From a bacterium (GTDB lineage Bacteria > UBP6 > UBA1177 > JAKLFG01): DNA of 60,288 bases. Location of the stretch: positions 1-60,288 of the forward strand of contig JAKLFG010000009.1 in assembly GCA_022711315.1 (NCBI GenBank), read 5' to 3'. The position numbers were made by a program, and so were the translations under genes. Of the stretch, positions 47,460 through 51,947 are shown one piece after another. Numbering within the stretch: position 1 is the stretch's first letter; every line of letters begins with the position of its first letter. A model generated the notes under the pieces. The model had not been told where the DNA came from. It did no database searches and worked only from the letters and a program-made list of their open reading frames with translations.

Positions 47460-47915
47460 TCAGCGGACACAGCGGACATGGACATGCGCCCCCTTGACTA
47501 TGGTGCTCACGCCGCCGTTGCCGAAGCCGACATACCACGCGAAGGTGTCGTAGTCGGAACGGGACGAGGAGGACCACAATCCCATGGTCTTGCCGTCTCC
47601 CAACGCCGAATATGTCGCGGCGCCGCCGTCACAAAAGCAATCGGCGGTCTCGCAATCGATCTCCAGACAATCGAGGTGGAACGCCGGACAGGCGCCGCCG
47701 TAGGTGCTACCGGGGCAGTTGATGATGATCTTCCGCAGTTCGTTGATGTTCGGCAGGCGGGCGCCCATGGCTTCGCAGTATTCCATAGCGGGCTCCCATC
47801 CCATCGATTCTTCACTCAGCGGGGTCCATTCGAGTCCTGCGTAGAAGTTACCGTCATCTTCAGCACACGCTACCGTCAGCATCAGCGCCGCGAGGAGCAA
47901 AAGGTATTTGGTCAT
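47460..47915 (-). CDS. DUF1566-type lipoprotein
   Basis: A 151-residue lipoprotein (MTKYLLLLAALMLTVAC, lipobox TVAC). The mature part has the DUF1566/Lcl pattern: W near the start (GLEWTPLSEESMGW), AMEYCEAMGARLPNINELRKII, then WSSSSRSDYDTFAWYVGFGNG. Cysteine-rich insert CLEIDCETADCFC in the middle suggests disulfides. Proteins with this fold are surface-displayed; ligands are unknown. GGAGGG precedes the ATG. Its promoter is the second copy of the duplicated 43-bp region. Confidence 0.75.
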   Translation of the reverse strand: MTKYLLLLAALMLTVACAEDDGNFYAGLEWTPLSEESMGWEPAMEYCEAMGARLPNINELRKIIINCPGSTYGGACPAFHLDCLEIDCETADCFCDGGAATYSALGDGKTMGLWSSSSRSDYDTFAWYVGFGNGGVSTIVKGAHVHVRCVR

Positions 47916-48015: not shown

Positions 48016-48879
48016 TTATACCCACAGTTTTCTGTAGGTGCCTCCCTTTGTCGAAAACTCGACAAGACCGATGTCGCGAAGATGCTGTAATTGTTGTCTT
48101 ATTTTATCTTTCACGGTATGATTTTCTGGGTGGAGTTTGGCAAGATGCAGCTCGAAACCATATACTTCCTCCAAGGAAAAGGTCTGCTTAGGAATTCGAT
48201 TCAGGCACTCAAAGACATCCTTTTTCCAGCCTGACAATCCTGTCAAAATCAGGTCGGTACCGCCTTGAAAAACCTCGTCTTCAACCGCATCGGCGCGGAA
48301 CAAATCCCGCTCCATTTCATCCAAATAATCAATCTCGCGTGGTTCGGGGCGCTGGATGTTTTCAAGAATGCTTTCGGCATCTTTTACAATATCATTGGTT
48401 ATAGTTGCTGCCTCGGATGTGTCGCTCCTCAAGGTTTCGAGATATGAACCGATGTCTTCAATGAGTCGCTTTTCGCGGATGAGCATTCCCAGTTCAAGGT
48501 TGCGCACAAGGCCGCCGGGTGTCAGGTTGCCGGAGGTGATGATGGCGGCAAAGGAATCGAAAAGATAAACCTTCGAGTGAATACGCGGCAGGCTTTTCAG
48601 CGTCACATCACGAATGGAAAGGAGGTCCTTGAATGCTTCAATATCCGAGGCTCCACGTTCGAAATTGCGAAGTTTGAAACTCGTCAGACCAACGATTGAA
48701 AAATTAGATTTTCGAGCATCCCATATGGTCTTAATAGCCGCTTTTTTTATAAAGGGGCTGGCAAACATCAAGCGACTTTTAGTTTCCCCAATGAGATCTT
48801 TGAATTGGTCAATCCAAGGCGTCTGGATAAGTTCAAAATCTTGCAACACGGCAATGCTCCATTGATTGACACAGCGCAT
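48016..48879 (-). CDS. PLD-family restriction endonuclease candidate with DpnI-C-type winged helix
   Basis: A 287-residue protein. Residues 30-150 form a phospholipase-D nuclease domain with one HxK motif (H101, K103, then D108 in IHSKVYLFD), followed by TSGNLTPGGLVRNLELG with the conserved Asn and Glu. One such motif per chain means the active site forms in a dimer, as in BfiI and Nuc. Residues 218-287 match the C-terminal winged helix of DpnI and Dam-replacing proteins (GWKKDVFECL, FSLEEVYGFE, HPENH, KIRQQLQHLRDIGLVEF). It lies 29 bases behind a DpnA-like methyltransferase, so it is read as that system's endonuclease. AT-rich codons and the window's only ACGT (48655-48658) point to recent transfer. 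Confidence 0.8.
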   Translation of the reverse strand: MRCVNQWSIAVLQDFELIQTPWIDQFKDLIGETKSRLMFASPFIKKAAIKTIWDARKSNFSIVGLTSFKLRNFERGASDIEAFKDLLSIRDVTLKSLPRIHSKVYLFDSFAAIITSGNLTPGGLVRNLELGMLIREKRLIEDIGSYLETLRSDTSEAATITNDIVKDAESILENIQRPEPREIDYLDEMERDLFRADAVEDEVFQGGTDLILTGLSGWKKDVFECLNRIPKQTFSLEEVYGFELHLAKLHPENHTVKDKIRQQLQHLRDIGLVEFSTKGGTYRKLWV

Positions 48880-48908
48880 TGTAAGACGCCGTTTTTTCTT
48901 TTCAAGTT

Positions 48909-49778
48909 TTAAGAAAAAAGAGTCGGCTGTACTTCGACGGCATTATACCGCTTGATGGTGAGGTCGATATGCGCCTTGTCCAACTCCACGCCGATGTAAA
49001 TCCGACCACCGAGAACTTTGGTAGCGATTCCAGTGGTGCCACCGCCGTTGAACGGGTCGAGGACGATGTCGCCCGGTTTGGTCGAGGCGAGAACGATGCG
49101 CTTGAGAAGCGCCAACGGTTTCTGTGTCGGATGTTTGCCAAACTCTTTTTCTTCCGGCTTTGGCGTGCCGATGGCCCAGACCGACCGCATCTGCGTATTC
49201 TCTTTCTTGATGAAGTCGCCGTTGAAATGGCCGTTCTTCATCGCTTCGTAGTTGAAGTAGTGCTTCGCCTTCTTGTCCTTCCGCGCCCAAATCACCGTCT
49301 CATGCGACGCGGTGAAAAAGCGGCAACTGAGGTTCGGCGCGGCGTTCGGCTTGAACCACGCGATGTCGTTAAGTATGTGGAAGCCGAGTTTTTGAAGGAG
49401 GAATCCGCACTGGTAGATGCTGTGGTAGGTGCCGCTTATCCAAATCGTCCCCTCCGGTTTCAGGATGCGGCGGCAGGCGGAAATCCACGCCTCGTGGAAT
49501 TTGAGGTCTTCCTCAAAGCCTTTCGATTTGTCCCAGTGCCCTTTGTTGACGCTGACCATCCGACCGTTCTGGCAGGTGAAGCCGTTGTTGGAGAGCATGT
49601 AGGGCGGGTCGGCGAAAATCATATCGACATAGTTTTCGGGGAAGCGCGCCATCACTTCAAGCGCATCGTTCTGGTAGAGAATGAACCCTTCGGCGCTGAA
49701 GGCAGGAATGATCGGCGAAGTACTGAGCGCGTCTTTCGTGGACGATCCACGCCCGCTCAAATTTCTCTCCGACTTCAA
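48909..49778 (-). CDS. class beta DNA adenine methyltransferase (DpnA-like)
   Basis: Transfers a methyl group to adenine N6 (less likely cytosine N4). Motif IV DPPY (residues 57-60) precedes the target region, and the SAM motif DPFNGGGTTG (241-250) is near the end: class beta order. Conserved stretches (VDMIFADPPYMLSNNGF, GRMVSVNKGHWDK, APNLSCRFFTASHETVIWAR, KHPTQKPLALLKRI) recall M2.DpnII (DpnA), which acts on GATC. The start is uncertain: a TTG at 49776-49778 opens the frame, and the ATG at 49785 is out of frame. The promoter at 49802-49830 leaves almost no leader. It is the protecting partner of the nuclease 29 bases downstream. Confidence 0.88.
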   Translation of the reverse strand: MKSERNLSGRGSSTKDALSTSPIIPAFSAEGFILYQNDALEVMARFPENYVDMIFADPPYMLSNNGFTCQNGRMVSVNKGHWDKSKGFEEDLKFHEAWISACRRILKPEGTIWISGTYHSIYQCGFLLQKLGFHILNDIAWFKPNAAPNLSCRFFTASHETVIWARKDKKAKHYFNYEAMKNGHFNGDFIKKENTQMRSVWAIGTPKPEEKEFGKHPTQKPLALLKRIVLASTKPGDIVLDPFNGGGTTGIATKVLGGRIYIGVELDKAHIDLTIKRYNAVEVQPTLFS

Positions 49779-49785
49779 AAATCAT

Positions 49786-49875
49786 GATCAAAAACAAGCA
49801 GATACTAGATCAGAAGCATCAGGAGATCAACGAATTTTTTCGATCGGCAAGATCATCAATGAATTCTGATCGATC
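49786..49875. promoter_or_regulatory. cluster of seven GATC sites over the methyltransferase promoter
   Basis: GATC begins at 49786, 49808, 49825, 49842, 49851, 49868 and 49872. Two more, at 49710 and 49744, lie in the first codons of the gene. The -35 element contains one site and the -10 adjoins another. Confidence 0.8.
49802..49830 (-). promoter_or_regulatory. promoter of the restriction-modification operon
   Basis: Minus strand TTGATC (49830-49825), 17-base spacer, TAGTAT (49807-49802). Transcription would begin roughly 15-20 bases before the first usable start codon, so the messenger may be nearly leaderless. Confidence 0.6.
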
Positions 49876-49905
49876 GCTCCGGAATGAGAACTTTCTTCCA
49901 TCTCC

Positions 49906-50491: not shown

Positions 50492-51727
50492 CTAATTCTC
50501 GTCGCAGGTGAGCCCGGCGAGCGTGCCGCACTCCATGTGCGCGGCCACGGCCGACCCGTCGCCCACATTCACATGAACGCCGCTGTACACATCGTCCATC
50601 TCGTCGGGGATGATGAATTCGGGTATCGTCACCCGGGCGCTCTCATAGGTGGTACTGCTGAACTCGAAGGAGGGGAGCACCTGATCCCAGGTGTTATTCT
50701 GCACGCCCAGCGTACCGGCCGGGACCATGCCGCAGAAGGTGCCGGTGCAGGTGACATTGCCGATGCTCGACATATTGTGGCCGCACCCGGCGCTGTCGAA
50801 CGCGTCGCCGCTGACCTGCGCGTCGGCGGAGGTCCAGTTCATCCGGTCGCTGCTCGGGGTGGTGGAGGTGCTCGTGTGGGCGCCGGGATAGTTCGGGACA
50901 TCGCAGGCGTTCCACGCGACGGTGGCGCCGGTCGCCTGACCGGTCGCGACCGCGACGCACTGCCGGTCGAGCGTGATCTGGTCGTTCTCGGGCAGGCAAT
51001 GGTCGGCGTTGAGCAGGCAACCGGAATCGGTCAGGGCGAGCAGGCCCGCCGAGTGATCGACATTGGTCGTCACATCGGTCCCCATCGTCGAGACGACGAA
51101 CTCTATCGGCAGGAAGTATTCGATGAGTTGGACGACCGGATCGACGGCGGGCGCGGTCCCCGCCTCGTTCGCGGTGAAACGGAGGCGGATATAGCCGCCG
51201 GGCCACGCGGTGGTGTCGTCGAACGGGCCCGACTTGGTGGAACCGCTCACATTGCGTCCCGCGTTCTCCATCACATTGCGCGAGCCGGTGCCGGTCTTCA
51301 CATTGTGGAAACGGCCGAGCGGGGTCGCGCCGTCGTAGAAGCGGTACACGACATCGCAGAAATACTCCTCGACCACATCGGTGTCGGGCGTGTCATCGGT
51401 GACGGTGTCATCGGTGATCATGTCGTCGGTGACGGTGTCATCGGTGACGGTGTCGTCGGTGACGGTGTCGTCGGTGACCGTGTCGTCGGTGACCGTGTCG
51501 TCGGTGATCGTGTCGTCGGTGACCGTGTTGTCGATGACGGTGTCATCGGTCACGGTGTCATCGGTGACGGTGTTGTCGGTGACGATATCGTCGGTCGTCG
51601 CCGTGTCGGCGTCGGACGGCGCGACATCGTCCGGCGTCGTCTTTTGGGTGTCGCTGTCGCAGGAGCCGAGCAGGAACAGGGCGCAGACAAGCGCGAAAAG
51701 GACCGTTCTGGCCGGGGAACTCATCAT
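50492..51727 (-). CDS. lipoprotein with a 15-bp tandem-repeat Thr/Asp tether
   Basis: A 411-residue lipoprotein (signal ending FLLGSC). Residues about 45-115 are a tether of about fourteen VTDDT pentapeptides encoded by a 15-bp tandem repeat. The rest is a secreted beta-rich domain with several cysteines (CLLNADHCLPEND, CAVA-like strands, FCGMVPAGTL) and no recognised family. AGGAGGT lies just before two adjacent ATGs (51727 and 51724); either may be used. The tether length is likely to vary between strains through repeat slippage. Confidence 0.65.
   Translation of the reverse strand: MMSSPARTVLFALVCALFLLGSCDSDTQKTTPDDVAPSDADTATTDDIVTDNTVTDDTVTDDTVIDNTVTDDTITDDTVTDDTVTDDTVTDDTVTDDTVTDDMITDDTVTDDTPDTDVVEEYFCDVVYRFYDGATPLGRFHNVKTGTGSRNVMENAGRNVSGSTKSGPFDDTTAWPGGYIRLRFTANEAGTAPAVDPVVQLIEYFLPIEFVVSTMGTDVTTNVDHSAGLLALTDSGCLLNADHCLPENDQITLDRQCVAVATGQATGATVAWNACDVPNYPGAHTSTSTTPSSDRMNWTSADAQVSGDAFDSAGCGHNMSSIGNVTCTGTFCGMVPAGTLGVQNNTWDQVLPSFEFSSTTYESARVTIPEFIIPDEMDDVYSGVHVNVGDGSAVAAHMECGTLAGLTCDEN
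51391..51600 (-). repeat. 15-bp tandem repeat coding for VTDDT units
   Basis: About fourteen units of a 15-base repeat with a few substitutions (ATC, GAT and AAC variants), all in frame within the lipoprotein gene. The unit length keeps the frame whatever the copy number. Confidence 0.9.
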
Positions 51728-51769
51728 GGTGACCTCCTCTTTTTTGTGATGGAACCTGACAGACGGGCG

Positions 51770-51798
51770 ACGATACCCCGAAGCCGGCCTCCTGACAA
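51770..51798 (-). promoter_or_regulatory. candidate promoter of the VTDDT lipoprotein
   Basis: Minus strand TTGTCA (51798-51793), 17-base spacer, TATCGT (51775-51770), about 43 bases before the start. Confidence 0.5.
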
Positions 51799-51947
51799 TG
51801 GCCGCGCGCCCTTCACGGGGAAAAAACATGGTGCGTTTCCGCACGCATGGAGCGCCCTCACGAAAAAATATCGGTCCCCGCGCAAATTTTATTTTACATC
51901 GCCGCCAGAACAGGTATCAAGGAAAAAACCTCCGGGAGGTGAGAGTC

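Follow-up and report, generated by a model that had tools for sequence, protein, structure and literature searches.

The window, by which we mean the whole 60,288-nucleotide stretch of DNA analyzed here, contains on its minus strand a cassette of two genes. One gene is predicted to encode a DpnA-type adenine methyltransferase and the other a PLD nuclease with a C-terminal winged helix (PLD-wH). The promoter region of the methyltransferase gene is crowded with GATC sites. A second locus that carries both genes (L012) is found in a genome of the same family from another genus (G007) and was used for comparison throughout. The features of the cassette are as follows:

48016-48849, minus strand: PLD nuclease with a C-terminal DpnI-type winged helix, likely start GTG 48849 (PF17726, 3e-24; PLDc_2, 2.1e-9)
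48878-48905, minus strand: predicted nuclease promoter TTGAAA-N16-TACAAT, 10/12 consensus matches, GATC-free (TTGCAA-N16-TACAAT at the same place in L012)
48909-49760, minus strand: DpnA-type beta-class adenine methyltransferase (PF01555, 2.7e-58; DpnA relatives)
49767-49770, minus strand: likely ribosome-binding site GGAG of the methyltransferase, identical in L012
49786-49875, no strand assigned: GATC cluster, all sites but 49808 kept in L012
49802-49807, minus strand: predicted -10 hexamer TAGTAT, directly 3' of GATC 49808-49811, kept in L012 although the spacer is not
49825-49830, minus strand: predicted -35 hexamer TTGATC, containing GATC 49825, kept in L012 with the same 17-bp spacing
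49826-49836, minus strand: direct repeat 2, AATTCGTTGAT, 29 bp from repeat 1 and overlapping the -35 hexamer
49855-49865, minus strand: direct repeat 1, AATTCATTGAT, a possible operator half-site, identical in L012

Read along the minus strand, the elements are AATTCATTGAT, AATTCGTTGAT, the -35 hexamer, a 17-bp spacer, the -10 hexamer, a leader with GATC 49786, GGAG, and TTG 49760. The methyltransferase likely starts at this TTG (49760-49758), which lies behind GGAG (49770-49767). The start codons and promoters were read from the sequence, and consensus matches this strong also occur by chance; TTGATC-N17-TAGTAT is a weak promoter (4/6 and 4/6 matches) that is absent from the list of an automatic scan with a threshold of 9/12. 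What speaks for the predicted promoters and start codons is their conservation in L012, not their consensus score. An initial annotation had placed one GATC within the -35 element and another beside the -10, and we recovered both (TTGATC at 49830-49825; 49808-49811 beside TAGTAT at 49807-49802). It had also placed two sites in the first codons. Two further GATCs do occur at the start of the gene, at 49744 and 49710, but both are outside the 90 bp of the cluster. With TTG 49760 as the start codon, GATC 49786 therefore falls in the leader and not in codons.

GATC starts at 49786, 49808, 49825, 49842, 49851, 49868, and 49872, and our recount thus gave exactly the seven sites in 90 bp that had been annotated. 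The earlier estimate that less than one is expected at this base composition also held. The promoter block (49779-49885, 107 bp) is 38% GC versus 62% for the window, and mononucleotide shuffling of this block gave 0.36 expected GATCs with a maximum of 4; seven was reached in none of 20,000 shuffles. Dinucleotide-preserving shuffling gave 2.6 expected GATCs (P(>=7) = 0.0019); the expectation is this high since the dinucleotide counts are shaped by the GATCs. At the genome-wide rate, which averages 0.46 GATC per 86 bp, one would expect 0.13 clusters per 2.67 Mb with seven sites in 90 bp. In the 1.39 Mb of the genome that was read (52%, with 7,477 GATCs), the segment beginning at 49786 was the only 90-bp segment with seven. 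Segments with five or six GATCs elsewhere in the same 1.39 Mb were located inside open frames of 181-696 codons; many are 9-bp coding repeats, and their GC content is 54-61% where listed. Unrelated intergenic DNA of equal GATC density, which would have refuted the idea of the initial annotation, was not found in this 52% of the genome. The source genome is mildly GATC-poor (observed/expected, O/E, of 0.71), and a genus mate without the cassette has an O/E of 0.73. Genomes with and without the cassette did not differ in GATC avoidance in this pair or in a second one (0.77 vs 0.79), leading us to drop avoidance as a sign of restriction.

Comparison with L012 showed that the methyltransferases are about 91% identical and the nucleases 73% identical. 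With dN/dS of about 0.12 (methyltransferase) and about 0.09 (nuclease), both genes have evidently been kept functional. The L012 promoter keeps both hexamers, their spacing, both repeats (for repeat 2, both sequence and spacing are unchanged), and six of the seven GATCs; its spacer is altered and the equivalent of GATC 49808 is lost. Conservation was observed at 25 of 28 GATC columns versus 47 of 62 surrounding columns (Fisher P = 0.11), and retention of six of seven sites has a P of 0.01 under random placement and was matched in 12 of 90 positions of a circular-shift control. These values (P 0.01-0.13) are only suggestive of GATCs being more conserved than their surroundings. A search with the promoter DNA across 28 genomes of the phylum gave a match beyond chance in G007 only. 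The initial annotation had also called for comparison of upstream regions among homologous systems. L012 has most of the cluster. Upstream of the remaining DpnA-type operons that we checked there is 0-1 GATC each, so the cluster is not a general DpnA feature. An Lcl_C-domain lipoprotein gene lies 3' of the nuclease gene at both loci (47460-47915 and L012 4910-5449), and the upstream flanks differ. Across 48016-49763, dS relative to L012 is fourfold apart between the neighboring genes (0.52 for the methyltransferase and 2.0 for the nuclease), a difference that would fit a separate exchange of the methyltransferase together with its promoter.

The beta-class motifs of the methyltransferase are intact (FADPPY, LDPFNGGGTTG). 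The protein is 48-52% identical (44-52% when one alignment row is taken per DpnA) to DpnA from Dam-DpnA-DpnII operons (L019, L020, L022, L023); these comparators come from the Lactococcus plasmid pSRQ700, a Staphylococcus plasmid, a Lactiplantibacillus plasmid, and a viral contig. It is 59% identical, over the matched stretch, to a DpnA-type enzyme adjoining a MutH-like nuclease. The motif PNLSCRxFT is common to the methyltransferase and the DpnA proteins and is absent from the CcrM-type protein L036. This motif, the missing CcrM C-terminal extension, and an identity of 39% to L036 disfavor a CcrM-like GANTC specificity. The identity to DpnA and the shared motif support the earlier description of this enzyme as DpnA-like, and its target is likely GATC. 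An 8-residue insertion around NGHFNGDF, in the probable recognition region, may alter this motif. Single-stranded DNA is the substrate of pneumococcal DpnA (PMC3573125), and the promoter, being duplex DNA, may therefore be a poor substrate for a DpnA-type enzyme. At another locus, L035 (519-2087), a DpnA-type methyltransferase is found with a MutH-like nuclease, and the same genome has a partial PLD-wH gene.

The nuclease has an intact HKD-type motif, HxKx4D (HSKVYLFD...TSGN), in its PLD domain, and its winged helix (KxKIRQQLQ) retains K229 and R231, which are among the DpnI contacts (PMC4117772). An AlphaFold model of the nuclease is weak overall (pLDDT 63) and good for the winged helix, with DpnI as the top fold match. 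Winged helices of PF17726-type nucleases sense Gm6ATC (PMC11037411), and this nuclease most likely recognizes Gm6ATC. In the same survey, for 87% of winged-helix fusions none of the three genes to the left or to the right encoded a methyltransferase, PLD-wH proteins resisted purification, and toxicity of the PLD-wH protein Aba4572I extended to Dam- cells and was lower in Dam+ cells (PMC11037411); the toxicity in Dam- cells leaves methyl-dependence of the PLD-wH subfamily unproven. Type IV PLD-wH enzymes mostly stand alone, but an intact methyltransferase adjoins the nuclease both here and in L012. The predicted nuclease promoter is directly behind the end of the methyltransferase gene (48909) and is followed by GGAG and then GTG 48849. 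This promoter is separate from that of the methyltransferase and, therefore, the two genes can be transcribed independently.

Relatives of the nuclease have repeatedly outlived DpnA. L013 (3684-5388) contains an N-terminal stub of DpnA, an intact PLD-wH gene, and a C-terminal stub of DpnII, an arrangement that resembles a natural swap of DpnII for a DpnI-type enzyme. An 18-residue DpnA stub is ahead of the nuclease in L014, the DpnI-type drg of N. gonorrhoeae adjoins a broken DpnA, and L016, L084, and L085 have a PLD-wH nuclease with no adjoining methyltransferase. In L086 the nuclease is accompanied by an SPPY methyltransferase and a BglII-like nuclease. The repeated retention of the nuclease where DpnA was lost argues, short of proof, against a protective methyltransferase and for methyl-dependence of the nuclease. 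The initial annotation had proposed that promoter methylation could hold the nuclease back until host DNA is protected. This fits poorly with a winged-helix family that senses methylated GATC, survival of the nuclease beside a wrecked DpnA, and a nuclease promoter free of GATC, so methylation would more likely arm the nuclease than disarm it, by creating targets for it. Given a conserved promoter that belongs to the nuclease alone and a domain that reads methylation, we set aside a delay within a single operon. Relatives in viruses included one DpnII operon (L019) and one winged-helix fragment (L033); a viral search with the nuclease as the single query gave no match, and a phage search gave a winged-helix match only. 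The DpnI-type nuclease in L088 (5852-6829) has two winged-helix domains in tandem.

We tentatively favor a reading in which the GATC cluster is a methylation-sensing promoter that imposes negative feedback on the methyltransferase inside an epigenetic-conflict cassette. While the GATCs are unmethylated, RNA polymerase would use TTGATC-N17-TAGTAT. The methyltransferase would then methylate GATC, and the densest cluster, including the -35 hexamer, would be methylated early, causing methyltransferase transcription to drop. The nuclease would be made independently from its own GATC-free promoter, and the feedback would hold the methyltransferase low such that the cell's own chromosome is not marked for cutting. 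Three parts of this reading are inferred: that the modified motif is GATC, that its methylation acts on transcription, and that the nuclease depends on methylation. In LlaDII and AhdI, methyltransferases are known to feed back on their own promoters (PMC12707154), and CfrBI is a further precedent. The initial suggestion that promoter methylation tunes this methyltransferase thus stands as far as the sites on a conserved promoter and the LlaDII and AhdI precedents are concerned, but the feedback itself is a proposal for this locus.

If the feedback reading is true, one cassette can house both a GATC methyltransferase and a nuclease that reads Gm6ATC. Such pairs are normally mutually exclusive, as with DpnI versus DpnII and drg versus dam. 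A survey of these nucleases left writer/reader conflicts open and proposed tight expression control (PMC11037411); the GATC-cluster promoter is a concrete candidate for this control and would be a compact, testable methylation-sensing promoter. We consider it quite unlikely that the cassette is a complete two-gene conflict module, in which the DpnA-type enzyme writes Gm6ATC, the adjoining PLD-wH nuclease destroys it, and the cluster promoter nearly silences the writer. In such a module, if the writer were released, as might happen upon infection or when single-stranded DNA enters the cell, the marked DNA would be cut as a write-then-cut or suicide defense.

The cassette has similarities to several known systems. 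As in LlaDII and AhdI, where promoter methylation affects the methyltransferase gene only, the methyltransferase promoter contains probable target sites of the enzyme itself, with the GATC target here assigned by homology. Unlike those systems, seven GATCs are spread over the promoter, the nuclease is a PLD-wH protein of a methyl-reading family, and the regulation is proposed. In Pectobacterium, PcaRCI silences the methyl-dependent PcaRCII via promoter methylation (PMC8989522), and there, too, a methyltransferase cohabits with a nuclease that attacks its mark and promoter methylation is the way out. In that case a single site silences the nuclease promoter, whereas here the sites are on the methyltransferase promoter, the nuclease promoter is GATC-free, and both genes are in one cassette. 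The PLD-wH type IV enzymes Aba4572I and CbaI (PMC11037411) have the same domain architecture, and Aba4572I also adjoins a methyltransferase; the adjoining methyltransferase here differs in being DpnA-type with a GATC-rich promoter. The DpnII systems (DpnM-DpnA-DpnB) share the DpnA-type methyltransferase, but the cassette has no Dam (DpnM) or DpnII nuclease, and the DpnII operons checked lack an upstream cluster.

Both readings of the nuclease share the same cis mechanism. If the nuclease cuts unmethylated GATC, the promoter would provide ordinary autoregulation like that of LlaDII and AhdI, and the cassette would be a classical type II restriction-modification system protected by the DpnA-type enzyme. 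Consistent with this, neither gene is disrupted in the two genera and both are under purifying selection, and Aba4572I, with its toxicity in Dam- cells that is lower in Dam+ cells, is beside a methyltransferase predicted for CGATCG (PMC11037411). We nonetheless regard a type II system as rather unlikely given the DpnI Gm6ATC contacts retained in the winged helix, the nucleases kept after loss of DpnA or with no adjoining methyltransferase (L016, L084, L085), and the failure of GATC O/E to separate genomes with the cassette from those without it.

Another explanation is that the cluster is functionless, having arrived with an AT-rich, horizontally acquired promoter and persisting by shared ancestry. 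The cassette is known from two loci only, and promoter identity to L012 (80%) is close to the identity at fourfold sites of the methyltransferase (75%), so that the promoter has diverged about as much as these sites. Against this are the rarity of such clusters (0.13 expected per genome, and one seen in 52% of this genome) and the retention of the hexamers and six sites in L012 despite an altered spacer. On balance we view a functionless cluster as unlikely.

It is also quite doubtful that the GATCs are part of the site of a transcription factor that binds the repeats AATTCRTTGAT, with methylation either blocking binding to give bistability, as for opvAB and agn43, or being irrelevant. The two 11-bp repeats, 29 bp apart, are kept in L012 and the second overlaps the -35 hexamer, but these direct repeats were spotted by eye, GATCs 49786, 49808, 49842, and 49872 are outside them, and the cassette has no regulator gene. 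The GATC cluster at the promoter is a trait shared with Dam-OxyR switches such as the phase-variable operon opvAB, which has four promoter GATCs under the control of Dam and OxyR (PMC3350482). Unlike opvAB, which needs both proteins, no Dam (PF02086) was found in the source genome (83% complete), nor was it found in G007.

Finally, the initial annotation had raised the nuclease's winged helix as a possible reader. It would then bind the methylated cluster and repress or cut the methyltransferase promoter; we consider this improbable because a chromosomal cut at the nuclease's own gene would be costly, and transcriptional regulation by a winged-helix nuclease is not known to us. In its favor are the DpnI-type reader domain, the six GATC sites conserved in L012, and the preference of related winged-helix nucleases for closely spaced pairs of methylated sites (PMC11037411).

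Two other observations concern the surrounding DNA. A lipoprotein-like gene (50492-51844) contains many DDTVT repeats, with near-identical short units at 51381-51600. In 1.33 Mb of the source genome, ACGT is nearly absent (60 vs 3,282 expected), and AGCT (367 vs 2,191 expected) and CTAG (256 vs 1,153) are also in short supply. The single ACGT of the window falls within the nuclease gene (48655), consistent with recent acquisition.
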